IMG/VR virus record: IMGVR_UViG_3300045790_000066
Span: 1-25,957 of that record
From: a virus
Reading direction: 5' to 3' (one strand)
DNA: 25,957 nt
In this document: positions 1,447 to 21,878 of the stretch, piece by piece
How positions within the stretch are numbered: position 1 is the first letter of the stretch
Layout: each line of letters starts with the position of its first letter
Notes under the pieces: model-generated
The model's database searches: none
What the model saw: only the letters and a program-made list of their open reading frames with translations
Told to the model about the DNA's origin: nothing
Program-made: the position numbers and the translations under genes

Positions 1447-1864
1447 TTTTTTCTCTCCATTCTTTTACATTAAATGAAGGACACTTCTTAACATCATCTA
1501 CTTCATAGTGTCCTATTATTTTTGTTATATTATATTTATCTTTTAATGTTTCTACGATTTGTTTTAATGTATCAAACTGTTCAGGTAAAAAATTATTTTC
1601 CCAACCACCTGATTTATCAGAACCACCTACCATACAAATTCCTATTGATGTACCATTAACTTGTCTAGCATGAGAACCTGTTCTATGTTCTTCTCTACCT
1701 ACTTCAAGTTTACCATCTCTTTTAATTACATAATGATAACCAATATCATCCCATCCATTATCAACAGTATGCCAATGTTTAATCTTAGCTGCATCTATAT
1801 CCATATCAGCAGGTGTTGCTGAACAATGAATAACAATCATATCTGTTTTAGTTCTTGGTGTCAT
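1436..1864 (-). CDS. N-acetylmuramoyl-L-alanine amidase, T7-lysozyme type endolysin
   Basis: This 142-residue protein aligns along its length with the T7 lysozyme (Amidase_2/PGRP) family. Visible zinc ligands are His13 (in IVIHCSAT), His119 (GHYEV) and Cys128 (KKCPSF). The catalytic Tyr43 (DIGYHY) and Lys126 correspond to T7 Tyr46 and Lys128. Other conserved blocks are IKRDG (47-51), GSHA (63-66) and SIGICMVGG (73-81). It cleaves the amide bond between N-acetylmuramate and L-alanine of peptidoglycan. It has no signal peptide, so export would depend on the overlapping holin. T7 lysozyme also inhibits its RNA polymerase; whether this one does cannot be judged. The start at 1864 overlaps the preceding gene by 17 nt. 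Met9 (codon 1840-1838) would avoid the overlap but shortens the N-terminus relative to T7. Confidence 0.95.
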   Translation of the reverse strand: MTPRTKTDMIVIHCSATPADMDIDAAKIKHWHTVDNGWDDIGYHYVIKRDGKLEVGREEHRTGSHARQVNGTSIGICMVGGSDKSGGWENNFLPEQFDTLKQIVETLKDKYNITKIIGHYEVDDVKKCPSFNVKEWREKNVA

Positions 1865-4800
1865 TTGTATCTTTAAATAAATTATTAGCTAAATCTTTTA
1901 ATTCCTTTTTATGTTTGCCATCTATTCTATTATTTAATATAGATTTAATTTTTACACCCCACTTCTTATCTTCAGCAAATCCTGTCTTAGCAATAGCATC
2001 TATAATATTTGCTTTACTTCCACTACCTTCATTAAATAATTTTATCTCTTCTCTAACACCAGCATAACTTTCTTTAGTTTCTATCCAATTTAAAAATTGT
2101 TCAATAGAAGCTTCTTCTGTTTTAAATTTTTTAATCTTTGCTTTGCTTTGACTAGCAGCTATAGATTCTTCCTTATCATCAAATGATTGAAAGTTAAATA
2201 AATTTTTACTATCTCTTTTTAAAAATTCAGATGAACCCCAACCAGTTTCTCCACTTGCAATAGATAATAAAATATCATTAGGTATTACATTATTGTTATT
2301 AGTAAGATAAACTTTTTCTGCAGTATTATTTAACCATTCTTTTTTAACAAGTGGTAAGTCAGGAAGATTATCATAAGATTTTTTAATAACAACATTAGTT
2401 TTTTTTGCAGGTATTATATCATTAGCTATAGCTTTATCCATATCTGCAGTTACTCCTGTTGTAGCTAGTGTTGTTGCTACAACTGCTGCAGCTAAATCTT
2501 TTTTTTTCATAGGTTTTTTCTTTGGTATTAATATAGGTTTATTTTTAGGTATAAGAATTTCTTCCCCTTCTTCATACCCTTCTCTCTTAATAATTCCTCC
2601 TGTACTTTTTTTAATTTTTTTATTTTCTTTTGGAATAAAAGGTACTATATTATTTCTATTCCACCAACCTCTTATTTTTGCTGTCCAATCAGGAATAGGC
2701 AATACTTTCTTAAAAAATTTTTCTTGCACTTCTTCTCTCTCAGCATTAGTTCCTCCAAACATTTCTCTAACTTGAATCCATTCTCCTAAAGTTGCAATCG
2801 TATTTTTACCCCAAGCATATCCAGGTGGCATCCATTCTTTTTTTCCAGGTCCAACAAACTTTCCTATAATATTTTCTGATAACCAACCAGCAGTTCCTGA
2901 TAATCTTAAACCATAAGCTAAGTAATCTCTCATATCATACTTTGCAGATTGCATAGACCCACCATGTTTTATTTCATCTCTTAATTGATGAATAGCAGAA
3001 TAAATTGGAACTGATGCCATCATTTTAATAAAAGTTCTTATATCTCCATTCTCTACTCTCTGTATCATCTTATGAGTTTGAGATGATTTAGCCATAGCCC
3101 ATGATTGAAACTGTCCAAGTAATCGTAAGTATGGATTTTGTGACATAGTAAATAATAATCTATTTGAAACTTGTGGTATTAATGCATCTCTATTTGCAAA
3201 CAACCACCCAGCTTCATTTAATACATTACTAGCTAATTTATTTTCTAAAGATTTATCGAAGGTATTAAATCTTCCAACCTTTAAAGCATCATCCATTCCT
3301 ATACCAAGTCTATCTAACCATTTATATACATTTATAACTTTAGGATTATCTGCTGCCAAGCCATCTTTTATCATTAACTTATATAATTTTCTTGTTTGCA
3401 TCCATGTATCCATTGCACCAGTATTGTAAGCAAATCTTCTTGAGTTACCAGTTAACCATGCTAAACCTATACCTTGAAATACTTTCTTATTAATAAATCT
3501 ATAAGCTTCTTCAGGTTTACCTAACCATGTTGATATTCTAAAAAAACTTTTAGCATCTGAATTAGTACTTAATACAGAGTCTTTTGATTTTACATTATAT
3601 GCCATACCTCTAGCTAAAGAATCTTCAATGTCTGCCATTAAATGTAAATTCATATTTCTTGCTGGACCCCATTCTGAAGCAGCACCTAATGTTGTTCTTC
3701 CAAGATAAGGAAAACTTTTAACCCAAGCCATCGCATTAGCAGAGTTAACAAAACTACCTACATAATCCCCCATAGATGCAATACTAACAGTACTTAACAT
3801 CTGTGTATTAGCACCAGTTGATAACATACCTGTAAAAAAGTTATTAGCTTTACTCATTTTTTGATGATAACTGTCAAAGAAACCATCAATAACTCCATAG
3901 ACATCATCCAATTCTCTTCGACCAGCCCATGAATCATTCCAAGCACCAGAGATATTAGAATTTTTATATTTATTTTTTATCTGTGCAAATAAAGGTTCTA
4001 AGAATTTTCCATTAGGACCAAATTGTTTAGTAAAAGCATATGACTTAGCAGTATTAGATACCATATTTGTTAGTATAGATAATATATTTGTATTTAAATA
4101 TCCTTTTTCCATAAGAATTTTTTCAACTAATTCATAAGGTCCATTTAGTTTTCTTTCATTACTTATATGTTTACTTAAAGGAGTTGTTATAAAATTTTCA
4201 TTAAACTTTTTCTTATCAGAACTTAACCATTTTTCAATACTCTCTCTATTTAATAATTTATCCCCATCATTTCTATTTGGATTTGTGTACGATTTTACTA
4301 ATGCTTTAGCAGAAGAATCGGTTGCACCCAAACTTTTAAATATATTAAATAAATCTTTTGCAAATTCTTTTTGATTGGTTACTATTTTTTGAGAGTATTC
4401 TCTAGGAAAATAATTTTTAGGTGTAAAGAATTTCTTTCTTTCTTTTGCAGACAATCCTTTTTTAGTAACACCTTGCCATGAAATTCCTTCTAGTTCTGTA
4501 AAAATTCCAACATCATTTAAATCTTTTTGAAATCTATATAACCATCCTTCAATATCTTTAGCTAGTTTAACTACTCTTTTATTACCCAACACAGTTTTAT
4601 CTTTATTACCTTGAATAATAGACATAGCTAACTCACCTTCTTCTATAGATTGTTTACCTATAATTGTAGATATTTCTTTAATCTTTGTCATCCTCCATTT
4701 TTCAGAAACATTAACTACAGATTTACCTGCAGCAGGAGAATCAATATTTTCAAGCATAATTTGACCAAATTTAGCAGTTGCTCCACCATATCCTTCAAGT

Positions 4801-6545
4801 TTAGTTGCATTAGTTGCAGCAAAAGTTATCCTTGCATTTTGAATTGCAAGTTTTAAATTATCACTAGCAGCTATTCCTAATATTTTATCTTTAGTAGCAA
4901 AAGAAAATTTAGGACTTGCTCTCATTCCTCTTATAGTTGCACCAACCATAGCACCACTAATTATCCAAGCTTTTAAATTTTGTCCATCATTACCTAAAGC
5001 ATTAAAAAAAATTCCTAAAGCTCCACCACTTGCACTTGTGACTAAAGGTAATGTACCATAACTTAATATAGGTCTAATAATATTAGAAGTTAGAAAATTT
5101 TCATTAGCTGCTAATTTTTCTAAAACTAAAAGATTTCTTTTAACAACACTAGCTGCATACTTATCATATTCTATTCTACCATTTTTAATTAACTGGTCTC
5201 TTAGTTTAGCAAAGTTACTTTCATTAAGAAGTAATTTCTTTTCAATATTAGCAAGTTCATTTACTAAACTTTTTGATTTATGTTTATTAATAATTTTTTT
5301 AACACCAACATTCCCAACCTTAGCTGTTAATTTATTTGCTTCTTTAGTAAGTTTTTTAATTTTTAATTGTGAAAATATTAATTTTTTATTTCTATCAATA
5401 AATTTTAATGATTGAGTTGATAATGCTTCTAAATTTTTTAAATTAGTTCCAATCTCATTATTAAAAATTTTAACTTCTTTAGAATTAGCAATAGCTCTTA
5501 ACTTATTTAATTCCTTTGGAGACACTCCATAGAATTTAGCTTTCTTATCATTAAGAATAGAGATAATTGCATTTAAATTTTTATTAGTAGCTTTAGGAAA
5601 AATTTTAGCAATGGTATCAAAAGCACCTTTAGTAAGACCCCCAAAGACAACTCCACCTGTAACATTTAAACCTAACTCTAATTTATTAACACTTCCCTTA
5701 GTACCCATTTGCTCAACCCAATTGTAAGCACCCACTACAGCACCTGAGTGAGCCATGAATCCTTTATAAGTTCCAAGTACTTTTCTAAAAGGTTTATAAG
5801 CATAAGCAGCATACCAATAAGGGTCTAAAAAATGACTAATAAGTTCAGTTGCCTGAACAAGTGTATCATTATCTTTTTTACCATCAGCAAACTTCCAATG
5901 TTTTTCTGAAAATGCTTTATTTTCTCTAATAGTTTCTTCTAAAGCAAAATCTTCTAAATTTTTATCTTTATCAAATTGTGATTTAATAGTTGCTTTACCT
6001 AAATCCCAAAGATGACCACCAAAAAAATTTGCTTTATCCCAACCATAGCTTAATCTATCAGCAGTACTAATATTATACTTAACCTTTGTTGATAAAGAAT
6101 CAAGAAAATCTTCTTCTTCTGGTTTTTTTAATTGAGGTGGTACTTCTTTTGAATCTACAGTATCCCAATTTGTTTCTTTAATTCCATCCTCTTTATAATT
6201 TTTAATTAACTTTTTTAATTCAAAAAGATTCCCTTCATTCCAAGAATTTTCAATAGTAGATAGTAATTCAATACCTTCAGTTACACCACTACCAAGTACA
6301 GTATTCTTTTGTGATTGTATTAAGGCATTTATCCATTTAGTATTAGTAGGAGTAGGATTGTCTATTGCATTTTTGGTTTTTTGGATAAGAGATAACTCAT
6401 CTTTGTTATCTATAGGTTGAGGAAGATTTTCATTATCTTCAGCTACAACACTAAGAGAATCTAGTAAATTTAATTCTTCTTTTGGTTGTTCTAAATTAGT
6501 ATTAATAACACTAATATTATCTAATATAGAAATATCTGTTGCCAT
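1848..6545 (-). CDS. Giant internal virion/ejection protein with C-terminal glucosaminidase domain
   Basis: This 1565-residue protein is the largest product in the window and sits where T7 has gp16, the ejection protein that spans the cell envelope. Most of it is Lys/Asn-rich and helical, with scattered hydrophobic stretches, for example about 485-515 and the Gly/Ala-rich region around 940-990. A basic stretch followed by an Ala/Val/Thr-rich hydrophobic segment lies at about 1346-1366. The C-terminal ~135 residues look like a GH73/Bax-FlgJ glucosaminidase domain: GETGWGSS at 1432-1439 with likely catalytic Glu1433, then KNLFNFQ (1447-1453), ASIEQF (1479-1484) and TGFAEDKKW (1521-1529). It would locally open peptidoglycan during DNA entry. 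T7 gp16 instead carries a lytic transglycosylase at its N-terminus. No clear Shine-Dalgarno sequence precedes the ATG. Confidence 0.88.
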   Translation of the reverse strand: MATDISILDNISVINTNLEQPKEELNLLDSLSVVAEDNENLPQPIDNKDELSLIQKTKNAIDNPTPTNTKWINALIQSQKNTVLGSGVTEGIELLSTIENSWNEGNLFELKKLIKNYKEDGIKETNWDTVDSKEVPPQLKKPEEEDFLDSLSTKVKYNISTADRLSYGWDKANFFGGHLWDLGKATIKSQFDKDKNLEDFALEETIRENKAFSEKHWKFADGKKDNDTLVQATELISHFLDPYWYAAYAYKPFRKVLGTYKGFMAHSGAVVGAYNWVEQMGTKGSVNKLELGLNVTGGVVFGGLTKGAFDTIAKIFPKATNKNLNAIISILNDKKAKFYGVSPKELNKLRAIANSKEVKIFNNEIGTNLKNLEALSTQSLKFIDRNKKLIFSQLKIKKLTKEANKLTAKVGNVGVKKIINKHKSKSLVNELANIEKKLLLNESNFAKLRDQLIKNGRIEYDKYAASVVKRNLLVLEKLAANENFLTSNIIRPILSYGTLPLVTSASGGALGIFFNALGNDGQNLKAWIISGAMVGATIRGMRASPKFSFATKDKILGIAASDNLKLAIQNARITFAATNATKLEGYGGATAKFGQIMLENIDSPAAGKSVVNVSEKWRMTKIKEISTIIGKQSIEEGELAMSIIQGNKDKTVLGNKRVVKLAKDIEGWLYRFQKDLNDVGIFTELEGISWQGVTKKGLSAKERKKFFTPKNYFPREYSQKIVTNQKEFAKDLFNIFKSLGATDSSAKALVKSYTNPNRNDGDKLLNRESIEKWLSSDKKKFNENFITTPLSKHISNERKLNGPYELVEKILMEKGYLNTNILSILTNMVSNTAKSYAFTKQFGPNGKFLEPLFAQIKNKYKNSNISGAWNDSWAGRRELDDVYGVIDGFFDSYHQKMSKANNFFTGMLSTGANTQMLSTVSIASMGDYVGSFVNSANAMAWVKSFPYLGRTTLGAASEWGPARNMNLHLMADIEDSLARGMAYNVKSKDSVLSTNSDAKSFFRISTWLGKPEEAYRFINKKVFQGIGLAWLTGNSRRFAYNTGAMDTWMQTRKLYKLMIKDGLAADNPKVINVYKWLDRLGIGMDDALKVGRFNTFDKSLENKLASNVLNEAGWLFANRDALIPQVSNRLLFTMSQNPYLRLLGQFQSWAMAKSSQTHKMIQRVENGDIRTFIKMMASVPIYSAIHQLRDEIKHGGSMQSAKYDMRDYLAYGLRLSGTAGWLSENIIGKFVGPGKKEWMPPGYAWGKNTIATLGEWIQVREMFGGTNAEREEVQEKFFKKVLPIPDWTAKIRGWWNRNNIVPFIPKENKKIKKSTGGIIKREGYEEGEEILIPKNKPILIPKKKPMKKKDLAAAVVATTLATTGVTADMDKAIANDIIPAKKTNVVIKKSYDNLPDLPLVKKEWLNNTAEKVYLTNNNNVIPNDILLSIASGETGWGSSEFLKRDSKNLFNFQSFDDKEESIAASQSKAKIKKFKTEEASIEQFLNWIETKESYAGVREEIKLFNEGSGSKANIIDAIAKTGFAEDKKWGVKIKSILNNRIDGKHKKELKDLANNLFKDTNDTKN

Positions 6546-10742: not shown

Positions 10743-12857
10743 TTAATTTTTTTTGTTTGCTTCTATTGTTTTCCATATATCTAATCCAAAACCACCAAGA
10801 TTTTTTAATTGTGAAATCTTATTAGAATCTAAAGCTGCTTCATTTCCTAAAGCTGCAATAGTAATATTAGTTTGTCTTTCGTCTTGATTTTGTGCTGCTT
10901 CATATTCCCATTTAGCAGAATCTCTCATTTCTTGCCATAGAAAAGATAAACCTTGATTACTCATATTAAATGAGTTCATAGCATTAGCTTGATTAACAGC
11001 ATTTGCTCCTGCAGTATTTGCAGTATTCATCTGTCTTCTCCATAATACATTTGATTGTTCAATTAAATTTGAGTTCTGTGTATTAAATTGTTCTCTATTA
11101 AAATCTAGTTGAGTATTAAATTTTTCTATTTCAGTATTCATAGTATTTTCTAATCTATCAGCTTCTAAAGTATTATTCTGATTTAAAGCAGCTACTCTAT
11201 TTGTTTCAGTTGAATTATAAACTTGCATTGCATCATTTCTTGCAGCATTTTGTTGATTGATTGTTGATGCTAAATTGTTTATAAACTGATTCATTTGATT
11301 TGTACTTGTTGCATTAAATTGAGCAGCAGCATTTGTAGCAGCTTGGTCAGATAACATTGTTTGTTGTCTTTGTTGTGTATTTAATATTTCAGTTTGTTGT
11401 GCTGCAGATAAATTAGTCATATCCATTTGTAAAAAAGCTTGAGCATTACCTACTGCTTTTTGTTGAGCATTAGATAAATTAGCCATATCCATTGTAGCTA
11501 ACTGTACAGCATTTTGCATTGTACTTTGTTGAGTATTAGATAAATTAGTTAATTCAAATGTTTTATATAAATTAGAATTTGATATTGCAGTTTGTTGTGC
11601 ATTGTTTAAATTTAAAACATCAAAACCTGCACTTGTTTGTGCATTAGCTAAAGCAGTTTGTTGTCCTGTACTTAAATTAGCTAAAGACATTTGTTGAGTT
11701 AACTGTCCTTGAGTTAAACCAGCTTGTTGTACATTTGCTAAGTTTGCTAATTTAGTTTGTTGAGCTTGTGCAGCACTAGCAATAATAGCTTGTTGTTGGT
11801 TCATTGCATTTAGTTTAATTATCTCTTGTGAAAACTGACCATTCATCATCTTAGCTTTCATATCATTCTCAGAGTTTACTAATTGAGTTTGAAAGCTTTG
11901 TTGTGCTGATAATACTGATGCTTGTTGTTCGTTAGTTAAATTTTGTGATGCTCTTTGTTGTAGAGCTGTTGCATTAGATTGAGCAATAGGTAATGCACTT
12001 TGTATAATTGCATTTACTAAAGCATCTCTTCCAATAGAAGACTTACTTAATCCTCTTTGTGCTAAATTCTTTTCAACATTTTCAACTGCAGCTCTAGCCC
12101 ATGTAGGAATAGTACCAGTATCAATACCAGTTAACAAAGAAGTTATTTGTGTAGATACTAAAGCATCTGTAGGTAAAGAAGCGATTGAAGCTTGTACCGA
12201 AGTAGGTGAACCTTGAATTGTTGCAGTAAGTTGAGCAGGATTACTTGCGATTGCTGCTACAATAGCAGTAGGTAATGTTGCAGTTTGTCCAGCAACAGTT
12301 GCAGCAGTACCACTTAATACTGAAGCTAAAGCTCCTGAAGATAATTGTCCTGAAGCTGCTTGAGCAATTGCTGAACTTGATGGTCCACCAGTTGCACCAG
12401 TTGCAGTACCAGATAAACTTCCAATAACTGTACCTATTTGTGAATTAGTTCCAACTGTACCACTTTGAGCAGTACCACTTTGAGCAGTACCAGTAGCACC
12501 AGTCATTGTTGATAAGGTAGGAGCTGTTGGAGTAGCTGCTGAAGAAGATGTTAAAGCTGTTGGTGATGCTATTGATTGACCAGTAATTGAAGCTGAAGCT
12601 ATATCTGTAGGAGCAGCTAATGTATTACCACTTAATAATTCATTTGATTGTACACCTTGGTTTGTATAAGATTGTTTAGCTGATGCTGCTAATTCAGGTG
12701 ATTTGATTTGGTCAGTAACAAACTTATCTATGTTTTGATTTCTAGTACCTAAACCACCTTGTTGTGGTTCAGAAGCTTTAGGAATACTTTTAAAATCTCT
12801 AACTTCATCACCAACAGCATATTTTTTTCTTCTAATTCTTTTAATCTTTGTTAACAT
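10743..12857 (-). CDS. Internal virion protein with 22-residue helical repeats, 704 aa
   Basis: The N-terminus is basic (MLTKIKRIRRKKYAVGDEVR). Residues 75-250 are Ala/Ser/Thr/Gly-rich and of low complexity, including a short GTAQS duplication. Residues 306-503 hold nine consecutive 22-residue units in perfect phase, best seen as N-L-x-x-x-Q-Q starting at 372, 394, 416, 438, 460 and 482. Residues 505-640 are Asn/Gln-rich, and the C-terminus (640-704) is helical with WQEMRDSAKWEYEAAQNQDERQ. It opens the internal-protein block, the position of T7 gp14. The helical repeat could form a long rod or lie on a membrane. A strong AAGGA ribosome-binding site precedes the ATG. No catalytic motif is seen. 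Internal or ejection protein is inference from synteny and composition. Confidence 0.8.
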   Translation of the reverse strand: MLTKIKRIRRKKYAVGDEVRDFKSIPKASEPQQGGLGTRNQNIDKFVTDQIKSPELAASAKQSYTNQGVQSNELLSGNTLAAPTDIASASITGQSIASPTALTSSSAATPTAPTLSTMTGATGTAQSGTAQSGTVGTNSQIGTVIGSLSGTATGATGGPSSSAIAQAASGQLSSGALASVLSGTAATVAGQTATLPTAIVAAIASNPAQLTATIQGSPTSVQASIASLPTDALVSTQITSLLTGIDTGTIPTWARAAVENVEKNLAQRGLSKSSIGRDALVNAIIQSALPIAQSNATALQQRASQNLTNEQQASVLSAQQSFQTQLVNSENDMKAKMMNGQFSQEIIKLNAMNQQQAIIASAAQAQQTKLANLANVQQAGLTQGQLTQQMSLANLSTGQQTALANAQTSAGFDVLNLNNAQQTAISNSNLYKTFELTNLSNTQQSTMQNAVQLATMDMANLSNAQQKAVGNAQAFLQMDMTNLSAAQQTEILNTQQRQQTMLSDQAATNAAAQFNATSTNQMNQFINNLASTINQQNAARNDAMQVYNSTETNRVAALNQNNTLEADRLENTMNTEIEKFNTQLDFNREQFNTQNSNLIEQSNVLWRRQMNTANTAGANAVNQANAMNSFNMSNQGLSFLWQEMRDSAKWEYEAAQNQDERQTNITIAALGNEAALDSNKISQLKNLGGFGLDIWKTIEANKKN
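11349..11942 (-). repeat. Nine-unit in-frame 66-bp (22-residue) degenerate repeat
   Basis: Within the 704-residue gene, units begin at residues 306, 328, 350, 372, 394, 416, 438, 460 and 482, always 22 apart. The consensus is roughly N-L-S/N-x-x-Q-Q-T-A-x-x-N-A-Q, followed by about ten more variable residues ending near M/L-A/T. The unit at 328 is degenerate. The protein period is exact while the DNA has diverged, so selection has kept the spacing. Twenty-two equals two 11-residue helical repeats. Confidence 0.85.
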
Positions 12858-13223: not shown

Positions 13224-14252
13224 TTACCTAGCTTTAGCAGTAACACCATTTGTACCTACGATTGATTGTCCAAATGCCATATAAATATTTGTGTTACTTG
13301 AAGCATTATAATTTGTATCAGTTGTTCTTATTTTAAAACCATTACTTAAAAAATCCATTTCTTTAGTGGTGTCCTCAACTAAAGAATCATTTGCTGCTAT
13401 TGCTTTTGTCATTTCATTACTCGGTGACCTTTTATTATCCCACATAAGCCATTCTCCTGAACCAGTTGCATCTTTAATCATTAAAAATGCTGGTTTGAAT
13501 CCTGTATAAACAAATGAACCATCAGCATTTCCATTACCTGTGTAGGATGAAAATTTTGAGTAGCCTTGAACATCTGCGAAGCAATATGCAATCATACTAT
13601 TTCCACTTCCATTTACTGCTGTATCACTACTAACAATAAAATCAGTAGCATCAGGAGTAGAGTTATTAAAAAATCCAGATGCTGTTGTAGGTGTAGCAGT
13701 AGTATTTAAATAACATGCTTTAGTATTTCCTGTACCTACATGATATACAACCCATTGAGCTGAACCATTAGATAAATTTTTAATCATAACAACTTTAGGT
13801 ATTACTCCTAATCCATGTGAAACTAAAATATTTCCTGCTGTTCCTGTCCATTTAACAATACTAAAACCTGCTGTTGTATTAGCTCTGACAGTAGAAGTTA
13901 CACTACCACTATTAAGTGTTTGTGAAGCTCCTGCTTTCCAAGTCCATGATACAAAAGTATCTCCATTATTATTATATCCACCTTGACCACCAAGAGAAAA
14001 ACCATCTGTTACAAAGCCTGTTACCCCTGTACTATCTGTTGCTTCTGCACCAGTTGCATTAGAATATATTGCTTTTGTTGCACCTCTAACAGAATCTACT
14101 AAATGATGACTTGCAGGACTATTTCTTCTTTTTAACCAAACAAGGTCTGCTTGAAAAGTACCTGATTCAGTTATATTTCTTGTTCCATCATCACCAGTAT
14201 AGAGCATAGTGTTTTGATAAAGTTTGCTATTATTTATTGTAGTATAAGCCAT
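13224..14252 (-). CDS. DUF7483-type fibre/receptor-binding protein, copy 2
   Basis: This 342-residue protein begins MAYTTINNSKLYQNTMLYTG and ends with a YMAFGQSIVGTNGV block. It is a clear full-length paralogue of the 341-residue protein at 18197-19222. It resembles proteins of the DUF7483 family that are common near tail-fibre genes of marine phages (family name from recall). Three internal segments share a pattern: a Gly/Phe-Pro lead, a hydrophobic strand ending I-K, then a Trp-containing strand. They lie around residues 32-60, 148-176 and 253-280, suggesting repeated beta units. There is no signal peptide or membrane span. It probably decorates the distal tail and contributes to host binding; that is inference. 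Its start is coupled to the LamG/SPRY gene by TAATG (14254-14250). Confidence 0.82.
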   Translation of the reverse strand: MAYTTINNSKLYQNTMLYTGDDGTRNITESGTFQADLVWLKRRNSPASHHLVDSVRGATKAIYSNATGAEATDSTGVTGFVTDGFSLGGQGGYNNNGDTFVSWTWKAGASQTLNSGSVTSTVRANTTAGFSIVKWTGTAGNILVSHGLGVIPKVVMIKNLSNGSAQWVVYHVGTGNTKACYLNTTATPTTASGFFNNSTPDATDFIVSSDTAVNGSGNSMIAYCFADVQGYSKFSSYTGNGNADGSFVYTGFKPAFLMIKDATGSGEWLMWDNKRSPSNEMTKAIAANDSLVEDTTKEMDFLSNGFKIRTTDTNYNASSNTNIYMAFGQSIVGTNGVTAKAR

Positions 14253-15607
14253 TATTCGTTAAGTCCTTTTGTGTTAAGTGCTGAGTATCCTGCTGGTACT
14301 GTATAATTAAATTTAGATGCACCTTCTGCACCTGCATAACCATTACCTGAGTTTGTAGTTATTGCTGTTGTTCCAAAAAAACCATTGCCGAAGTTTACAT
14401 TACAAACTCTACTTTGATAATTAGTTGCTAAAGGCAACCAATCTACACTTGTAGATAATCCTGTATAAGCAGAGTTAGTTGTAGTACCTGATGCTATTTC
14501 AGAAATAGTAGCAGAGTTTTGCCATACACCATCTTTAGAAAACCAAATAGTACCAGTTGTACTATCAAAAGCTGTTCCTATTATATTTCCACTTGCATAG
14601 GTACTTCCATAACTTGTAGCAGTACCTTCATTAATTTTATTTCCATCATCTTCATAGCCAACACATTGATTTCCAATAAAACTATTATCATAAGAAGATA
14701 AATCAACTATTCCAGTAGTTGCACTTCCATCTGACCCAGCACTAACCCATTTAGTTTCCCAATAATATTTACCTTTTAATGCAATAGAACCAACAGCATT
14801 AAGATTAGAATTTGAATTATTAAATGATGCTGTTGTATTACCATTTGAAAATGTTGGGTTTCTATCTCCACTAGTTTCTCTAGGAACTAAAGGCATAAAT
14901 GTAGCAAAAACATTATCAGGATTATCTTTTAAATCTGTAAGAGTACCACCACCTAATGTAAAGTCATTACCTTCACCTGATTGGTCAGTAATACCATTAC
15001 CATCTTTAAGAATAAAGAATCCATTATTTCCATAAGTAACTGAAGGAGAAGTCTTAGCTTCCCACTCACCTGTAGTTGCATCTGTTGAACCGAAAGCTGA
15101 TGCGTCATAAGCTGTTCCATCTATAAAGTGTAAATGAGAAACTGAACTATCAAGATAAGACGCATTTCTATAACTATCTTTTCCTATTGTATGTTCAATA
15201 GCAGAATTTATAAGTGAAGCTTGATTTTGAGTTGGGTATGTTAAATCACCCCCAACAGATGTATCTGTTTCTTGATTTCCATTTATATAAATTTTTAATC
15301 TTTCAGAATCTGTAACATTTGCAGAATCAAAAGATATAACTAAATTATACCAACCAGAAACATCTCTTAATCTATTTGATAATCTAAAAGAGCCTAGTGC
15401 TGAACCACCACTTACTTGAGAATAGTATTGTAGTTGACCACTATTGTAATTAGACCAAATTTGTTGATAATTACTACTATCGCCACCTGCACTAAATAAA
15501 GTATTAATATCTCCACCTATGTGTCCTTTTTTAATCCATGCAGAAAGTGTCCACTTTTTATTATTTGTTGGTGTTCCTAAAGTTCTTGTTAAATATGTAT
15601 TAGCCAT
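14252..15607 (-). CDS. LamG/concanavalin-like plus SPRY-like fibre protein, copy 2
   Basis: This is a 451-residue protein. Residues 1-185 look like a LamG/concanavalin-A-like jelly roll: KKWTLSAWIKKG near the start, GWYNLVISFDSA mid-domain, LKIYINGNQ, and a terminal YLDSSVSHLHFIDG strand. Residues about 260-440 look SPRY-like: GKYYWETKWV, an internal GIVDLSS, NIIGTAFDSTTGTIWFSKDG and VNFGNGFFG. Both folds commonly bind glycans or proteins, so a distal tail adhesin is likely. It is a paralogue of the 441-residue protein at 19222-20547; both end with S-A/T-LNTKGLN-like sequence. One-base TAATG overlaps join it to genes on both sides (15609-15605 and 14254-14250). Confidence 0.83.
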   Translation of the reverse strand: MANTYLTRTLGTPTNNKKWTLSAWIKKGHIGGDINTLFSAGGDSSNYQQIWSNYNSGQLQYYSQVSGGSALGSFRLSNRLRDVSGWYNLVISFDSANVTDSERLKIYINGNQETDTSVGGDLTYPTQNQASLINSAIEHTIGKDSYRNASYLDSSVSHLHFIDGTAYDASAFGSTDATTGEWEAKTSPSVTYGNNGFFILKDGNGITDQSGEGNDFTLGGGTLTDLKDNPDNVFATFMPLVPRETSGDRNPTFSNGNTTASFNNSNSNLNAVGSIALKGKYYWETKWVSAGSDGSATTGIVDLSSYDNSFIGNQCVGYEDDGNKINEGTATSYGSTYASGNIIGTAFDSTTGTIWFSKDGVWQNSATISEIASGTTTNSAYTGLSTSVDWLPLATNYQSRVCNVNFGNGFFGTTAITTNSGNGYAGAEGASKFNYTVPAGYSALNTKGLNE

Positions 15608-16650
15608 TAATTAAATCCTCCTGAGCCTGACATCTCAAAAGCGAAGCTCATACTAAAAGCTCTTACTGCTGTCTGTCCTTCGGCATCTGTTGCTGTTATA
15701 CTAAAATTTTTTGTACCTGCTGCTGTAAATTCTGTTTGTGTTCCTGCTATTGTACAACTTCCTGTACCAGAAGTAAATGTTAATCCTGTTGGTATTGCAC
15801 TTGTTGTTACTGCAAATGATGTAGCATTAGTTGCTGATAAAGTAATTGTACTTACAACTGAACCACCAGTATAAATAGAACCTGCTGCTGTTGTCCAAGC
15901 TGGAGCATCTGATACTGTTAGTAAAGCTGAACCACTTCTTACTGCATTACCATCATTGTTTTCAATTCTTAAATAGTATGTACCATCAACTGGTAAAGTA
16001 AATGTTGCTATGACTTGAGTAGCACTTGTATAAACAATACTATCTGCTGGTGTAATAGCACCTGTAGAATTAATTGCTTCTACTTGAGGTACTGATATAA
16101 AATTTGTTCCTGTTATCGTAACTGCTGTTGCAGTATTTTCTATAACTGTTGGAGATATGCCTGATATAGTAGGTTTTGTTTCTCCGATTGTAACACTACC
16201 ACCTAATGAAACTGCACTACCATTAATTGTAATAGAGCTAGTAGATAATTTTGATGTTGCTATAGCTGCTGAATTATTAATATCTGCATTAACAATTGTT
16301 CCATCAACTATCTTTGCACTTGTTACTGCATTATTTACAAGTTGTGCTGTATTAACTGTACCATCTGCTGGTGTTGTAATAAAACCAGTACCCATTTGAT
16401 AAATAAAATCACAAGTATCTGCGTCTGCTAAAGCACTACTAAAAGTTATTGTTGAACCACTAACAGTAAAGTTACCATATTGAGTTACACCATTGATTGA
16501 TACAACCATAGTATCTGCTGAAGCTGGTACGAATGCTACACTAGCTTTAGTTAAGTTATAAGGACCAGCACCTGTTGCAGTAGCTGGAGTTATAACATCT
16601 AGTTTTTCAACTATGCTAAATCTATCTAAATTTTGTCCTATGTATGCCAT
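15607..16650 (-). CDS. Tail fibre protein with IPT/Ig-like domains, 347 aa
   Basis: Residues 1-95 match an N-terminal unit common in marine phage fibres (MAYIGQNLDRFSIVEK, then YNLTKASVAFVPASADTMVV and GVTQYGNFTVSGSTITF). Residues 97-140 carry the TAQLVNNAVTSAKI-type fibre repeat. SITINGSAVSLGGSVTIGET (139-158) is nearly identical to the N-terminus of the 505-residue protein. Residues 160-246 are IPT/TIG-like (ITGTNFISVPQV, YYLRIENNDGNAVRSG). Residues 250-335 are Ig-like (GLTFTSGTGSCTIAGTQTE, FSITATDAEGQTA). The C-terminus is GGFN. It is probably a fibre shaft or adaptor presenting the LamG/SPRY and DUF7483 partners encoded next. No clear ribosome-binding site is visible. It heads the second fibre cassette. 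Confidence 0.82.
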   Translation of the reverse strand: MAYIGQNLDRFSIVEKLDVITPATATGAGPYNLTKASVAFVPASADTMVVSINGVTQYGNFTVSGSTITFSSALADADTCDFIYQMGTGFITTPADGTVNTAQLVNNAVTSAKIVDGTIVNADINNSAAIATSKLSTSSITINGSAVSLGGSVTIGETKPTISGISPTVIENTATAVTITGTNFISVPQVEAINSTGAITPADSIVYTSATQVIATFTLPVDGTYYLRIENNDGNAVRSGSALLTVSDAPAWTTAAGSIYTGGSVVSTITLSATNATSFAVTTSAIPTGLTFTSGTGSCTIAGTQTEFTAAGTKNFSITATDAEGQTAVRAFSMSFAFEMSGSGGFN

Positions 16651-16675
16651 ATTATTTTTACTTTATTATTTTATA

Positions 16676-18193
16676 TTAAAATGTTATATTTCCTGAAGCT
16701 GTCCATGTAATAGCTGTGTCTGAACCAACTGCTGAAGCTGAATAAGTTCCTGTTATTCCAGTTTTTTGATTGTAGTCTGCTGTTGACATTCTTAAAATTA
16801 CAATACCATTTCCACCTGCTCCAGACGGAGAAGTATGACTACCATATCTAGCTGAACCACCTCCACCAGAACCTGTACCATTTGTACCAGATGTTGCAGC
16901 AAGGTCAGTACCTGCATCTCCACCAGAACCTCCATTACCACCACCTGCTTGACCTAAACCGATTACAGACCTTGCATCATTTCCATAAACTCCACCTCCA
17001 CCACCACCTGCGTATTGTATTGCTGAACCATTTATTGAATTTGTTAATCCTTCTCCACCATTACCACCACCTGTAGCAGAACCATTAATTCCTGCGTTTG
17101 ATGAACCACCTCCACCACCAGAGCCATAATTAGGTGAACTACTATTACCATTACCACCACCATAACCTTGACCAGAAGTACCTGAAGCACCAGAACCATT
17201 ACCATAAGCACCACCACCAGAACCACCAGTTCCACCATTAGCATAAGAAGCAGTACCACCACCACCTCCTCCACCTATAGAAGTAATGTCTGTAATGTTA
17301 GAACCAGAAAATACACTGTTTTGACCTTGATAACCTCTACCCATATTAGTAGTTGCTTTTGCAGCACCACCATTACCAACTGTAACTGTGTAAGTAATTC
17401 CAGTTCCTAAAGTGTAAGCTGAACCACCATAATTAGTTAAGTAACCACCTGCTCCACCTCCACCACCTCTTTCATTTCCACCAGAACCACCACCTGCTAC
17501 TACCAAGTAGTAAGCTGTTCCTACAAAGAAAGATGAAGTTAATGAAAATGCTCTAGTTACAAATTGATTCTCTACATCGGTAGCTTTAAGTGTAAAATTA
17601 TATGCTGTTCCACTTGTTGAACTACCACCAAAATCTGTTGTAGTTATTGCTCCTGTATTAGGATTTAAAGAACAGTTAGCTTGACTTGAATTTGTTAATA
17701 CATTTGTTGTTTCAGAAAATGTTATAGCACTATCCGAACTAGCTGCAACTGTTGCAACTGCACCTGAAAAATCCCCAGCTACAGTTCCTAAAGAACCTGC
17801 ATTAGTTGAAAATGTTGGAGCAGTAGATGCTGTTAAAATATTGTTTGTACTTCTTCCAGCATTTCCATCTGGGTTTTCTATTCTTACAAAATAGTTTCCT
17901 AATGCTAAAGTTAAATTAACTGAAAGTGTTGTAGCATTTGTAAATGATACTGTGTTAGCAGTTATAATTGCACCAGTATCTGATTTAATAAATTGTACTT
18001 GTGGTATAGCAATAAAATTTGTTCCTGTAATATTTATTGTTGTAGCTGTATCAGGTGCAATTGTTTGTGCTACATTAGCTACAGTTGGTTTTGTTTCACC
18101 TACTGTTACACTTCCACCTAGACTAACAGCACTTCCATTAATTGTAATAGAAGAGTTATTTAATCCTGTATTTTTTACTTTTGTTGTTGCCAT
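16676..18193 (-). CDS. Fibre adhesin: IPT/Ig-like plus large polyglycine domain, 505 aa
   Basis: Residues 15-34 share the SITINGSAVSLGG block with the 347-residue protein. Residues 35-121 are IPT-like (INITGTNFIAIPQVQFI, VRIENPDGNAGRS). Residues 124-222 are Ig-like and closely resemble the 323-residue protein. Residues 228-468 are a glycine-rich domain starting YYLVVAGGGSGG, with runs of up to seven Gly and many Asn/Ser, ending GNGIVILRM. A beta-rich tail of about 35 residues follows. The domain resembles the Gly_rich_2 type and recalls the polyglycine-helix sandwich adhesin gp38 of T-even phages, which contacts the receptor. The domain call is good by eye; receptor binding is inference. It sits between the two cassettes and has no full counterpart. 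Confidence 0.87.
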   Translation of the reverse strand: MATTKVKNTGLNNSSITINGSAVSLGGSVTVGETKPTVANVAQTIAPDTATTINITGTNFIAIPQVQFIKSDTGAIITANTVSFTNATTLSVNLTLALGNYFVRIENPDGNAGRSTNNILTASTAPTFSTNAGSLGTVAGDFSGAVATVAASSDSAITFSETTNVLTNSSQANCSLNPNTGAITTTDFGGSSTSGTAYNFTLKATDVENQFVTRAFSLTSSFFVGTAYYLVVAGGGSGGNERGGGGGAGGYLTNYGGSAYTLGTGITYTVTVGNGGAAKATTNMGRGYQGQNSVFSGSNITDITSIGGGGGGGTASYANGGTGGSGGGAYGNGSGASGTSGQGYGGGNGNSSSPNYGSGGGGGSSNAGINGSATGGGNGGEGLTNSINGSAIQYAGGGGGGVYGNDARSVIGLGQAGGGNGGSGGDAGTDLAATSGTNGTGSGGGGSARYGSHTSPSGAGGNGIVILRMSTADYNQKTGITGTYSASAVGSDTAITWTASGNITF

Positions 18194-18196
18194 ATT

Positions 18197-19222
18197 TTAT
18201 CTTGCGTTATTAGGAACATTATTGCTCCCTACTATTGATTGTCCGAATGCCATGTAGATGTATGTTACACCATTACTATTTTGACTAGAATGAGTTATTC
18301 TAATTTTAAAACCATTTGATAATAAGTCTATTCTATCGTCATTATTACTTTCAGCATCTGTTGCATTAGCTTTTAAATAATCATTTTGTGGGTTGTAACC
18401 ATCTCTTTTATTGTCATGCATATACCAATCTCCTGTAGCAGAAGAAGGTTTTGTCATAACCCAAGCTGGTTTAAATCCTGTGTAAACAAATGGACCATCA
18501 ACATTTCCATTACCTGTGTAGCTTCCAAATTTTGAGTAGCCTTTTTTTTCTGCAAAACAGTAGGCTATATATGTTGCACCACTTGTATTAACACTTCCAT
18601 TAGTTCCTATACTAAATAAAGTATCTGTAGGACTTGTATCATTCCATCTATCACTTTGTGTACCTGCTGCTCCAGTATCAAAATTTATTTTTTTAGTAGC
18701 ACCTAAACTTGCATGATAAGTTGTCCAAGAATCTGCACCACTTAATTTTTTAACAATTATAAATTTTGGTATTGCACCTAAACCATGACCAATTGTAGCA
18801 TTACTGCCTGTACCTGTCCATGAGCATATTGAAAAACCTGCTGTTGTATTAGCTGAAACAGTTGAGTTTATAGAACCTGCTGTATTAGCTGAACCTGCAC
18901 CATTTGCTTTCCAGTTCCATGATGCAAAATTAATACTATTACCATTTACTTTTGTTCCATTACCTAATGTAAAACCATCTGAATTAAATGCAGTTAATGT
19001 TGAGGTATCAGTTGATTCTGTACCAGTAGTATTGGAAAAAATATTTTTGGTAACACCTCTAACTGCATCAGTTAAAACATGATTTCTAATATTATTTCTA
19101 TCTTTTATCCAAGTAAAATCTGGTTGAAAACCAACACCTGTAATAGCATTTGTTGATGCGTTACCTGTGTAGAGCTTAGTGTTCATGTGCAAACTGCTCT
19201 TATTTATTGTAGTATAAGCCAT
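18197..19222 (-). CDS. DUF7483-type fibre/receptor-binding protein, copy 1
   Basis: This 341-residue protein begins MAYTTINKSSLHMNTKLYTG and ends YMAFGQSIVGSNNVPNNAR. It is a full-length paralogue of the 342-residue protein at 13224-14252. Closely matching blocks include HVLTDAVRGVTKNIFSNTTG, TTAGFSICSWTG, GHGLGAIPKF and YSKFGSYTGNGNVDGPFVYT. The middle (about 190-215) and the variable loops between strands differ most. The same three internal repeated beta segments are visible. The DUF7483 name is from recall. Its ATG overlaps the preceding LamG/SPRY stop by one base (TAATG, 19224-19220), and its own stop lies 3 nt before the next gene. It is probably part of the distal tail receptor-binding assembly. 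Confidence 0.82.
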   Translation of the reverse strand: MAYTTINKSSLHMNTKLYTGNASTNAITGVGFQPDFTWIKDRNNIRNHVLTDAVRGVTKNIFSNTTGTESTDTSTLTAFNSDGFTLGNGTKVNGNSINFASWNWKANGAGSANTAGSINSTVSANTTAGFSICSWTGTGSNATIGHGLGAIPKFIIVKKLSGADSWTTYHASLGATKKINFDTGAAGTQSDRWNDTSPTDTLFSIGTNGSVNTSGATYIAYCFAEKKGYSKFGSYTGNGNVDGPFVYTGFKPAWVMTKPSSATGDWYMHDNKRDGYNPQNDYLKANATDAESNNDDRIDLLSNGFKIRITHSSQNSNGVTYIYMAFGQSIVGSNNVPNNAR

Positions 19223-20547
19223 TATAAATTTAATCCTTTTGTTGATAAAGCTGTATAGCCTGTTGGTACATCATATTCAAATATTCCATTGCCACTTGCG
19301 TTAGTTCCTGCACTAGATACTGCTGTTGTTCCGAAGTAGCCATTGCCGAAGTTTACTTCTATAGTATCTTGACCTGCTATAACTCCAAAAGCTACTAAAT
19401 ACATACCTTGTGATGTAGAACCTACTGAAGTTATATTAACTCCAGAAGCACCTAATATTGAACCATTTTTATAAAAATATATTTTGTTTTGTGCTGAATC
19501 TAAATCTACAGCTATTCCTATTATATCTCCTGCTGTATAAGTTGCATAAGTTGCAAGAACAATGCTTCCACCACTTCCATTTGTTGTTTCAACTTTACCT
19601 GTACTTAACAAACCATAACCATTTAATTGTAAAGGTGCAGGAGAAGCAGTATTTCCAAAACTTGGTATAGGTTGAATACCTAGAAAAGGTGCTGATGAAC
19701 TTAATGTTTTAGCTTCCCAATAATATTTACCTTTAAACATTGGTATAGTTGCTGTGACACTAGCTTCTCTACTAGTACCTGTAGTAATTTTTGTATTACC
19801 ATTACTAAATGTAGCATTAGCATAATAATTATCTAAAGGATTTAATGTAGCAAAATTATTGCTTGGATTATCTTCTGTTTTTGTAAGTGTACCACTAGCT
19901 AAAGCAAAATTATTAGAATTTGATGATTGGTCTGTAATAGTATTTCCATTATGTAAAATCATAAAACCATTAGTACCCCAAGTAAAAGAAGTTGAAGTTA
20001 AATCTTTAATTCTCCATTCTCCAGTATCGGTATCTGTTTCTCCAAAAGAAGTAGGTGCTAGTGATTGCCCATCAATATTAATAATATCTGACAACACTCC
20101 ACTAAAATAATCATAATTATTACTGTGTCCACCTATTTGATGAACTGCTGTTACATTCCAAGCTAAATCTGCGTTTAGTGAAGGTTTTGTATCTGTTGAA
20201 TAACCACCTACTGTTCTTTCATCAACACCATTTATGTATATTCTAAATCTATCATCTGCAGTTGACTGTGTTGTATCAGCTCTGATAACTAAATGATACC
20301 AAGCAGATTTATCTAAAAATTTTCTATTAGTAACTAAATTAACACCACTTTCATTATAACATCTTATTGTTCCAGCTGATTGAATCATACATCTAAAATA
20401 ACTACTAGAAGTCTGACCAATTATTTCTCTTGAATCTCCACCTGCACCATCAGTAAATGGGTGTTTTCCTATTTTAAACCAAAGTGAAATTGTAAATGTT
20501 TTTCTATTACTTGCTGAACTTGGTGTTCTTGTTAATTTTGTATTCAT
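19222..20547 (-). CDS. LamG/concanavalin-like plus SPRY-like fibre protein, copy 1
   Basis: This is a 441-residue protein. Residues 1-170 look LamG-like: NRKTFTISLWFKIGKHPF, SAWYHLVIRADT, FRIYINGVDERTVGG and SGVLSDIINIDG. Residues about 250-430 look SPRY-like: FKGKYYWEAKTLSSSAPFLG, GDIIGIAVDLDSAQNKIYFY and EVNFGNGYFG. The C-terminus is YTALSTKGLNL. It is paralogous to the 451-residue protein at 14252-15607, with the same domain order and the same coupling to a DUF7483-type gene. Jelly-roll and SPRY folds usually mediate carbohydrate or protein recognition, so an adhesin role is likely but inferred. It is joined to both neighbours by TAATG overlaps (20549-20545 and 19224-19220). Confidence 0.83.
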   Translation of the reverse strand: MNTKLTRTPSSASNRKTFTISLWFKIGKHPFTDGAGGDSREIIGQTSSSYFRCMIQSAGTIRCYNESGVNLVTNRKFLDKSAWYHLVIRADTTQSTADDRFRIYINGVDERTVGGYSTDTKPSLNADLAWNVTAVHQIGGHSNNYDYFSGVLSDIINIDGQSLAPTSFGETDTDTGEWRIKDLTSTSFTWGTNGFMILHNGNTITDQSSNSNNFALASGTLTKTEDNPSNNFATLNPLDNYYANATFSNGNTKITTGTSREASVTATIPMFKGKYYWEAKTLSSSAPFLGIQPIPSFGNTASPAPLQLNGYGLLSTGKVETTNGSGGSIVLATYATYTAGDIIGIAVDLDSAQNKIYFYKNGSILGASGVNITSVGSTSQGMYLVAFGVIAGQDTIEVNFGNGYFGTTAVSSAGTNASGNGIFEYDVPTGYTALSTKGLNL

Positions 20548-21518
20548 TAGTTAAATTGTCCTCCACCTGTTGACCCAGTATAGAAGCTAGAAGTTAAACT
20601 AAATACTCTATCTGCTGTTTGTCCTTCTGCGTCTGTTAATCTTAAAGTAAATGTGTAAGTAGTAGCTGTAGTAGAACTACCACCAAAATTTGATGTTGTG
20701 ATTGCACCTGTTGAACTATTTAATGAACAGTTTGCTTGTGCAGCATTTGTTAATACTGATGTTGTTTCTGAATAAGCTACTGTAGAATCTGAACTACCTG
20801 CAACTGTTGCAACTGCACCAGAAAAAGAACCTGCTACTGAACCTATTGAACCTGCTGCTGTAGACCATGTAGGTGCTGTAGAAGCTGTAATAATATTATT
20901 CGTACTTCTTCCTGCGTTACCATCTGGATTCTCTACTCTAACATAATAATTTCCTGTAGCTAAAGTACAGTTAACTGAAAGGGTAGTTGCATTTGTAAGA
21001 CTAACAGTATTAGAATTTAAAATTGCACCTGTTGTACCATTAATAAATTGTACTTGAGGTATTGCTACAAAGTTTGTACCAGTAATATTTATTGTTGTAG
21101 CTGTTGCTGGAGCAATAGTTTGAGATACATTAGCAACTGTAGGTTTAGTTTCTTGTGCAGATACCCAACTTAATTGATTATTTGCATTACCATTAGTAGC
21201 AAGTACTTGTCCATTACTTCCAACACTTGTTGGTAAAACTAAATTATAACTTTGTCCTGCAGAATGTGCAGGTCCAGCTATTGAAACTCCATGTGAATTT
21301 TGTGAACAGTTAAGAATTAATTTTCCATCTGCTGAAGAACCATCACCTTTAATAGTTAGTCCAGGTGTAAATTCTGTTTTAGCATTTGTGATAGCATCTG
21401 CATTTACTTTAACTTCAGTAACAGAATTACTTGCAAGTTTATCTGCAGTAATTATTCCATTATTAATATCACTTGATGTTAAAGCTGCGTTAGCAGGAGC
21501 TTTACCGACATATGCCAT
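20547..21518 (-). CDS. Tail fibre protein with IPT/Ig-like domains, 323 aa
   Basis: Residues 1-50 are a fibre-type start (MAYVGKAPANAALTSSDINN, LASNSVTEVKVNADAI). Residues 51-120 contain LILNCSQNSHGVSIAGPAHS and SVGSNGQVLATNG, a block often seen in marine phage fibres. Residues 122-212 are IPT-like (TINITGTNFVAIPQVQFING, VRVENPDGNAGRSTNN). Residues 213-310 are Ig-like (ANCSLNSSTGAITTSNFGG, TFTLRLTDAEGQTADRVF). The C-terminus GGGQFN parallels the GGFN of the 347-residue protein. The IPT/Ig half is very close to that of the 505-residue protein, so the two share recent ancestry. It heads the first fibre cassette. An AAGGAAA ribosome-binding site lies upstream. Confidence 0.82.
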   Translation of the reverse strand: MAYVGKAPANAALTSSDINNGIITADKLASNSVTEVKVNADAITNAKTEFTPGLTIKGDGSSADGKLILNCSQNSHGVSIAGPAHSAGQSYNLVLPTSVGSNGQVLATNGNANNQLSWVSAQETKPTVANVSQTIAPATATTINITGTNFVAIPQVQFINGTTGAILNSNTVSLTNATTLSVNCTLATGNYYVRVENPDGNAGRSTNNIITASTAPTWSTAAGSIGSVAGSFSGAVATVAGSSDSTVAYSETTSVLTNAAQANCSLNSSTGAITTSNFGGSSTTATTYTFTLRLTDAEGQTADRVFSLTSSFYTGSTGGGQFN

Positions 21519-21539: not shown

Positions 21540-21878
21540 TTATGCTGAGATAGTATCTACAACACTTGTAATTATATCAACAGATGAAGCTGCCGAAGCA
21601 TAAGCTTCAACTGAATCGCCATTCTGTAATACAACTTTAGAACCACCATCAATTAATTCTAAAGAACCACCAGTAGGGATAGGTGCATCTTTAATAATGT
21701 GATAAATGTTGCTTCCATTTTTAACATATACAGTTACATTAACAGCAGTACCAGAAGTGTTTGCACACCTTACTCCTATTATTGCATCATCTGAATTTGC
21801 TGCTGTTCTTAAAACAGTTGCAGACCCTGATGAATTTGATATGTTTCGTTGTAAACTATTTTCGAAATCTTGTGCCAT
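21540..21878 (-). CDS. Small virion-type protein (112 aa)
   Basis: This is a 112-residue, Ser/Ala/Val-rich protein starting MAQDFENSLQRN. It has a predicted beta-strand pattern in the middle (IIGVRCANTSGTAVNVTVYV, IYHIIKDAPIPTGGSLELI, KVVLQNGDSVEAYASA) and no signal peptide or membrane span. Proteins of this size and pattern are common next to fibre genes of marine cyano- and pelagiphages and look like small beta-sandwich decoration or fibre-attachment proteins. That is recall and inference. It is the first gene after the strong promoter at 21919-21891. The Shine-Dalgarno AGGA (21889-21886) overlaps the promoter region, and the predicted 5' leader would be only about 6 nt. Confidence 0.8.
   Translation of the reverse strand: MAQDFENSLQRNISNSSGSATVLRTAANSDDAIIGVRCANTSGTAVNVTVYVKNGSNIYHIIKDAPIPTGGSLELIDGGSKVVLQNGDSVEAYASAASSVDIITSVVDTISA

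Follow-up and report, generated by a model that had tools for sequence, protein, structure and literature searches.

The seven minus-strand genes at positions 13224-21518 of the window (the whole 25,957-nucleotide stretch of viral DNA analysed here), which take up 32% of its length, are best explained as the locus by which an HTVC103P-like phage recognises its host, with three anchored slots, exchangeable tips and two tip types, a reading to which we give a probability of about 0.7. The same explanation holds that the cassettes are old and that at least their fibre parts were obtained separately from a pool common to unrelated marine phages, not through one recent duplication. Two cassettes, A and B, share an identical gene order (Ig-like fibre, LamG/SPRY lectin, DUF7483 protein), and all seven genes and the TAATG couplings lie where the first-pass annotation had placed them; it put the gene total of the window at about 25, where we count about 20, and it called the copies tandem, whereas gene M sits between the two cassettes. 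The window is a fragment without DNA polymerase, capsid or terminase genes, and its phage is a relative of known SAR11 viruses (HTVC103P-like, SAR11-type), whose host assignment draws only on its relationships and GC content. Few cells in the ocean are as abundant as SAR11 bacteria, and the receptors bound by their phages are, to our knowledge, largely unknown.

The locus is bordered upstream by a conserved 112-aa gene (21540-21878, minus strand; 83-85% identical to its counterparts in HTVC103P and HTVC104P) and downstream by a conserved 704-aa gene (10743-12857, minus strand; 74-76%). Slot A opens with the fibre/anchor gene A1 (20547-21518, 323 aa, ending GGGQFN) and slot B with B1 (15607-16650, 347 aa, ending GSGGFN). 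Their N-termini differ: homology begins at about residue 109 of A1 and 143 of B1, and the aligned parts are 41% identical over 215 columns (BLAST, E 9e-36). In A1, its own N-terminus (about 1-108) is followed by IPT-like and He_PIG-like Ig domains, and in B1 (about 1-142) by Ig-like domains. At E 0.1, no locus protein had a Pfam match to IPT/TIG, and He_PIG was matched in B1 only (9.9e-6), so that "IPT-like" denotes a motif reading of A1, not Pfam membership. The anchors are orthologous slot by slot, with A1 76% identical to its HTVC103P and 73% to its HTVC104P counterpart and B1 62% and 64%, respectively, compared to the 41% between A1 and B1. The middle-slot adhesin M (16676-18193, 505 aa; Gly_rich_2, PF21722, 1.2e-13) occupies the position of the glycine-rich gene of HTVC103P and HTVC104P and combines a short KVKN start, a B1-like linker (SSITINGSAVSLGGSV, common to M and B1), an A1-like Ig-like part (70-75% identical to A1) and a glycine-rich C-terminus; because M also carries an Ig-like domain, this domain is present three times.

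The LamG-like and SPRY proteins A2 (19222-20547, 441 aa; phrog_27411, 1.2e-89) and B2 (14252-15607, 451 aa; phrog_27411, 8.4e-83) are 38% identical over 466 columns (BLAST, E 2e-61). The suggestion that N- and C-terminal blocks are kept between the copies holds for the C-terminus of this pair; its other best-kept stretch is central (about 180-240), and the N-termini of A1 and B1 differ as described above. SPRY (PF00622) is matched by B2 with 28.6 bits (1.6e-6), over the Pfam cut-off of 26.3, and by A2 with 21.0 bits, under it; the AlphaFold2 model of A2 (pLDDT 88.7) matches solved SPRY domains with a probability of 1.00 (E 9.5e-11), and SPRY is matched in 56 of 67 aligned relatives. The SPRY fold is thus supported by both profile and predicted structure. 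The LamG profile has no Pfam match in A2 or B2 themselves, and Laminin_G_3 is found in 31 of the 67 relatives. The DUF7483 proteins A3 (18197-19222, 341 aa; PF24299, 1.8e-126) and B3 (13224-14252, 342 aa; PF24299, 7e-106) are 51% identical over 344 columns (BLAST, E 1e-107) and score 422 and 354 bits against a gathering cut-off of 27. A3 consists of three homologous repeats of about 95 aa, matched to each other by HHalign at 97.5-98.2%, and its AlphaFold2 model (pLDDT 92.4) had no PDB match with an E-value of 0.001 or below, the best being 2e-3. A literature search on "DUF7483" returned no paper naming it.

All four within-cassette junctions read TAATG, with one base shared, and each is preceded by a Shine-Dalgarno-like site inside the last codons of the upstream gene (all minus strand): GGAGGA for A2 (20559-20564, within GGT GGA GGA CAA TTT AAC TAA TG of A1), AAAGGA for A3 (19234-19239, in A2), AGGAGGA for B2 (15616-15622, in B1) and AAAGGA for B3 (14264-14269, in B2). 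Such sites occur at 87 of 95 fibre-LamG junctions in the family, compared to 99 of 985 control positions, and at 90 of 102 LamG-DUF7483 junctions. As TAATG is the commonest junction in the cassette family (76 LamG-DUF7483 and 77 upstream gene-LamG junctions) and is tied to the ribosome site, we rejected its identity in A and B as evidence for duplication.

Other phages have the two-cassette layout too: the SAR11 phage isolates HTVC103P and HTVC104P show it, as do three further IMG/VR contigs (L010, L096 and L113), and the HTVC103P-type group shares its morphogenesis gene order, with conserved tail genes at 73-85%. An assembly artefact is unlikely, given that the layout recurs in independent contigs and in two isolates and that another IMG/VR contig, L004, is 100% identical across the A cassette. 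A comparison for one-, two- and three-cassette versions, as the first-pass annotation had proposed, found 0, 1 or 2 cassettes at the locus in related genomes (one in L094, none in L095 and L104) and three in contigs that look HTVC023P-type. Both slots persist across divergent relatives, in which slot B carries three end-classes of cassette, and L114 has a 603-aa tail gene 95% identical to that of the window and tips at 40-58%. Behind the T7-like fibre of HTVC022P and HTVC041P, too, lies the fibre-LamG-DUF7483 series, and MEP301, SS120-1, CRP-406, C72C1 and S-B68 have LamG and DUF7483 as a fusion, as expected if the parts act together. We found no published description of the two-cassette layout; the first description of the isolates lies outside the literature searched.

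The reading first proposed for this locus, a tandem duplication of the whole cassette inside the lineage followed by fast divergence of loops, is in our view improbable, and as recent history it is not supported. Gene order and couplings do match and all three parts are homologous, but the couplings are generic, the N-termini of A1 and B1 are unlike and slot B has different end-classes in different relatives. The closer likeness of same-genome copies that a tandem duplication would leave was not found in any of the three parts: same-genome and other-genome identities are 45.6 and 47.6% for the IPT-like part and 47.1 and 45.2% for DUF7483, and for LamG they are 39.3 and 38.9% between slots, next to 40.2% among A copies and 41.0% among B copies, so that tips are not tied to slot. 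By rank, the LamG copies of the window stand only 65th and 42nd of 76 as each other's partners; the best match of B3 within the comparison set is A3, at 51%. The Ig-like part of A1 groups with T7-like pelagiphage fibres and that of B1 falls in a clade with slot B of L101 and L114 (support 99), and sisterhood of the two is rejected (AU p about 5e-189). That the Ig-like part of M is a duplicate of that of A1 is not rejected (AU p 0.46), but each has a closer match elsewhere (A1 81% to HTVC041P, M 76% to HTVC022P). Sisterhood of A2 and B2 (AU p 0.30, in a poorly resolved tree) and of A3 and B3 (AU p 0.96, in a mostly unresolved one) is not rejected, which would suit a duplication, and an ancient event may have been overwritten by later exchange. 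A quick DUF7483 tree proved to be a poor search, the constrained tree being 92 log units better, and since the careful tree is still mostly unresolved we draw no DUF7483 history. Grouping of the paralogues with unrelated phages, named at the outset as what would speak against duplication, was thus found for the Ig-like part, and independent acquisition is shown for that part only, because LamG and DUF7483 sisterhood is not rejected. The three parts have correlated identity matrices (Mantel r 0.26-0.43, 0 of 2,000 permutations).

The locus model we prefer would place three anchored slots (A, middle and B) between the 112-aa and 704-aa structural genes. Slots A and B would each open with a lineage-specific N-terminal anchor, here holding a portable cassette of Ig-like fibre end, LamG/SPRY lectin and DUF7483 protein, and the middle slot would hold the glycine-rich adhesin. 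The data show the anatomy of the locus, the layout common to relatives, the exchange of the fibre part, the signals at the junctions and the variability; from these we infer virion presence, stoichiometry, docking and receptor binding as follows. The anchor would fasten the fibre to the tail; translational coupling, with ribosome sites lying within the final codons of each upstream gene, would keep the LamG/SPRY and DUF7483 proteins at linked levels; both would dock on the fibre end, and the cell surface would be bound by their variable loops. Each virion probably carries both sets, giving two tip types. Since the window has two coupled cassettes of receptor-binding type, each behind an N-terminal anchor of its own, it is plausible that one tail bears two tip complexes, and, judged from sequence, this is the likeliest function of the two cassettes.

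That only one cassette is used at a time, with the second kept in reserve as spare tips or being an old set on its way out as the phage changes receptor, seems to us decidedly improbable. Related contigs that miss one or both cassettes do indicate that these are dispensable over time, yet the window and the two isolates have all reading frames intact and their ribosome sites kept, and the two slots have lasted in divergent relatives. Nor do we find support for the suggestion that the phage is in transition between receptors, as a layout common to HTVC103P, HTVC104P and other contigs looks settled. It is very improbable that the cassette proteins decorate the virion or help to assemble it (e.g., as fibre chaperones) and do not bind receptors: DUF7483 has no known function or clear match to a solved fold and phrog_19943, in the category "head and packaging", labels its members "virion structural protein", but both LamG and SPRY are binding folds, the cassette proteins come after tail-fibre genes, their variability is concentrated in loops, phrog_24898 is annotated as tail fibre and the published hypervariable region of Skadi-1 (13,646-15,713; PMC10504331) covers LamG (14411-15724) together with most of DUF7483 (13356-14408).

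Beyond the locus model, we tentatively suggest, as a possibility that may well prove wrong, that unrelated families of marine phages draw on a single common pool of three-gene tip cassettes, that recombination at conserved seams moves these between anchored slots, that the number (0 to 3) and kind of tips on a virion change as cassettes are plugged in and exchanged and that DUF7483, with three repeats in a single chain, caps a trimeric fibre. That a phage can carry several receptor-binding proteins is already well known. If our reading is right, several unrelated phage groups attach by means of the same three-protein tip, and one structure and one binding assay would be informative for many phages. 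Genomic comparisons also gain a defined unit (cassette, slot, end-class) for questions of tip gain and loss.

Among known systems, the T2-type gp37/gp38 tip, in which a separate adhesin gene with hypervariable loops caps the fibre, has a glycine-rich adhesin that resembles slot M in composition (PMC12892980); the LamG/SPRY and DUF7483 proteins are unrelated to gp38 in sequence, and fibre capping is here a proposal. KP32-like podoviruses also combine two receptor-binding proteins on a short-tailed phage and keep constant attachment ends with swapped binding domains (PMC6872550). Their proteins, however, are enzymes that a T4 gp10-like branching domain links together (PMC6872550), whereas the tips of the window are separate coupled genes, and none of the locus genes, nor the 572-aa fibre or the 704-aa gene, has a Pfam match to the branching domain at E 0.1. 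The T7-like pelagiphages HTVC022P, HTVC041P and HTVC011P have the same Ig-like fibre end, LamG/SPRY and DUF7483, with mostly TAATG or near-TAATG junctions, but belong to another phage family and carry a single copy behind a long T7-type tail fibre. HTVC103P and HTVC104P, whose records label each cassette gene "hypothetical protein", differ from the window in that their middle gene has its own N-terminal part in place of the Ig-like one, in a 106-107-aa gene after it that the window lacks and in tips only 33-52% identical; they share its gene order, from the 112-aa gene through cassette A, the glycine-rich gene and cassette B to the 695-704-aa gene, and their flanking tail genes are 73-85% identical to those of the window.

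The window, an IMG/VR virus record, is a fragment of 25,957 bases with a GC content of 31.6% and about 20 genes, almost all of them minus-strand. In transcription order, the locus runs from a 603-aa tail gene, a 572-aa fibre-like gene and a 112-aa gene through cassette A, a middle gene (M) and cassette B to a 704-aa gene. Each cassette consists of an Ig-like fibre or anchor gene (A1, 323 aa; B1, 347 aa), a LamG/SPRY gene (A2, 441 aa; B2, 451 aa) and a DUF7483 gene (A3, 341 aa, 18197-19222; B3, 342 aa, 13224-14252), and M (505 aa, 16676-18193) combines an Ig-like with a glycine-rich part. The arrangement described in the first-pass annotation, a cassette present twice in the same order with TAATG couplings, was borne out, with TAATG at all four within-cassette junctions. 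Elsewhere in the window, positions 1848-6545 encode a protein of 1565 aa that carries a glucosaminidase domain at its C-terminus (PF01832, 9.4e-14) and shares only about 30-33% identity with relatives; it is probably an internal virion protein opening the cell wall. An Amidase_2 endolysin (1436-1864; PF01510, 1.3e-20) was without match among the related contigs compared.

The same annotation took the two cassettes for a tandem duplication of the whole unit. Had one cassette been copied within the lineage, copies from the same genome should be closer to each other than copies from different genomes, yet they were essentially no closer in any of the three parts (Ig-like, 45.6% versus 47.6% identity; LamG, 39.3% versus 38.9%; DUF7483, 47.1% versus 45.2%). 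In the Ig-like tree, the A copy joins the fibres of single-cassette pelagiphages (a clade of 33 rows, support 99), the B copy groups with the slot-B genes of two related contigs, L101 and L114 (support 99), and a constraint forcing the window's two copies to be sisters was rejected (p 5e-189). Separate origins are therefore shown for the Ig-like part; for LamG and DUF7483, sisterhood is compatible with the data (p 0.30 and 0.96), in trees that are weak, for DUF7483 even after careful search, and separate origins of these tips are suggested. The three repeats within DUF7483 have their best matches in different contigs, which hints at mosaics.

Two isolates from SAR11 strain HTCC7211, HTVC103P and HTVC104P, share the layout of the window; their middle gene is glycine-rich, and the border genes are 73-85% identical to the window's. 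A1 is 73-76% and B1 62-64% identical to the isolates' genes at the same position, compared to 41% between A1 and B1, so each anchor has a long history of its own. At the sequence level, LamG and DUF7483, unlike the anchors, follow no clear slot-by-slot pattern: A2 is 41-44% identical to the isolates' slot-A and 38-39% to their slot-B genes, and A3 is 47-52% identical to those in either slot. Even L114, whose 603-aa gene is 95% identical to that of the window, shows 73/40/58% identity for A1/A2/A3 and 77/48/46% for B1/B2/B3. Across different relatives, slot B holds three kinds of cassette end, the LamG protein closing with EEYS (HTVC103P, HTVC104P, L010), NTYG or the similar KNIKEFG (L032, L113, L096) or KGLN (window, L101, L114). 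The three parts are nevertheless correlated between genomes (Mantel r 0.33, 0.43 and 0.26; 0/2000 permutations), so that joint transfer is commoner than separate transfer, and several other phages carry LamG and DUF7483 fused in a single protein.

The middle slot is exchanged as well as the tips, by a different design, since the middle gene keeps its ends (MAI..K.. and ..RIRGVSLQY) around differing central domains in L010 (6028-7293), L032 (4968-6128), L094 (6198-7616), L096 (4779-6230), L101 (1307-2740) and L114 (17243-18481). The window's M looks like a mosaic; it has a KVKN start like the isolates' middle gene, a linker common to B1, an Ig-like part close to that of A1 and a Gly_rich_2 end.

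Comparing related contigs for cassette number, as the first-pass annotation had proposed, revealed zero, one, two or three. Among contigs that cover the locus from the 112-aa gene through to the 704-aa gene, L010, L096, L112, L113, HTVC103P, HTVC104P and the window have two cassettes and L094 has one; L095 and L104 have none, and other proteins fill their slots. L112 has its second cassette before the slot-B anchor, which itself bears a tip of another kind that includes a LamG domain. L092 was scored as one cassette, since the frame of its second DUF7483 gene is interrupted, and L107 is in fragments; the apparently broken frames (L092:7538 region; L107:5665-6118) could reflect decay or sequencing error. 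Five contigs (L015, L019, L023, L024 and L053) carry three consecutive cassettes, which shared neighbouring genes would link to the HTVC023P type, a neighbourhood link rather than a full classification. In L015, L019 and L024, each cassette has a different end (EEYS, NTYG, KGLN), in constant order. In the two-cassette L008, the capsid protein matches that of HTVC027P at 88% and that of HTVC023P at 76% identity, and the 649-aa structural gene shares a PHROG with that of L024; HTVC027P's own region has no gene annotated as an Ig-like/LamG/DUF7483 cassette.

Junction signals support coupled translation as a family trait. A Shine-Dalgarno-like word 5-17 bases before the start occurs at 87/95 fibre-LamG (Fisher p 2e-65) and 90/102 LamG-DUF7483 junctions (p 5e-64), compared to 99/985 control positions. 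At TAATG fibre-LamG junctions, the two glycine codons in this stretch read GGA or GGG in 100/103 cases, compared to 754/2050 elsewhere (p 8e-38). Relatedness among the sequences makes these p-values too small, yet the trend is clear: the glycines conserved at the C-terminus of the fibre protein also serve as a ribosome site. At junctions with a gap of +9, the stop is instead TAG in 19/20, opening a TAGGA word.

DUF7483 comprises three homologous repeats of ∼95 residues (mutual HHalign matches, 97.5-98.2%); in each repeat, the first half is conserved and the second half variable. The A3 model (pLDDT 92.4) had no PDB fold match at E 0.001 or better, and among viruses it matches members of its own family; an attractive but speculative idea would be that the chain, being pseudo-threefold, sits on a trimeric fibre. 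The A2 model (pLDDT 88.7) matches SPRY domains, and residues 281-320 are the most variable part of A2. In Skadi-1, a polar SAR11 phage, few metagenome reads map to region 13,646-15,713, which was termed hypervariable (PMC10504331); in our own comparison of coordinates with record OP131302, this region takes in LamG (14411-15724) and the greater part of DUF7483 (13356-14408), which lends independent support.

These sequences are best read as a locus for attachment that comprises two tip cassettes plus a glycine-rich adhesin, each of them probably part of the virion. That the two anchors stay distinct across relatives argues that both are used; contigs with fewer cassettes show that no cassette is indispensable. 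No paper naming DUF7483 was found in the literature searched. Several receptor-binding proteins with swapped ends (KP32 type; PMC6872550), a separate fibre-tip adhesin (T2-type gp38; PMC12892980) and, in pelagiphages, hypervariable genes for host recognition (PMC3909814) were already known; as far as that literature shows, what is new is a portable three-gene cassette in zero to three copies in anchored slots, together with the ribosome sites embedded in it and the construction of DUF7483 from three repeats.
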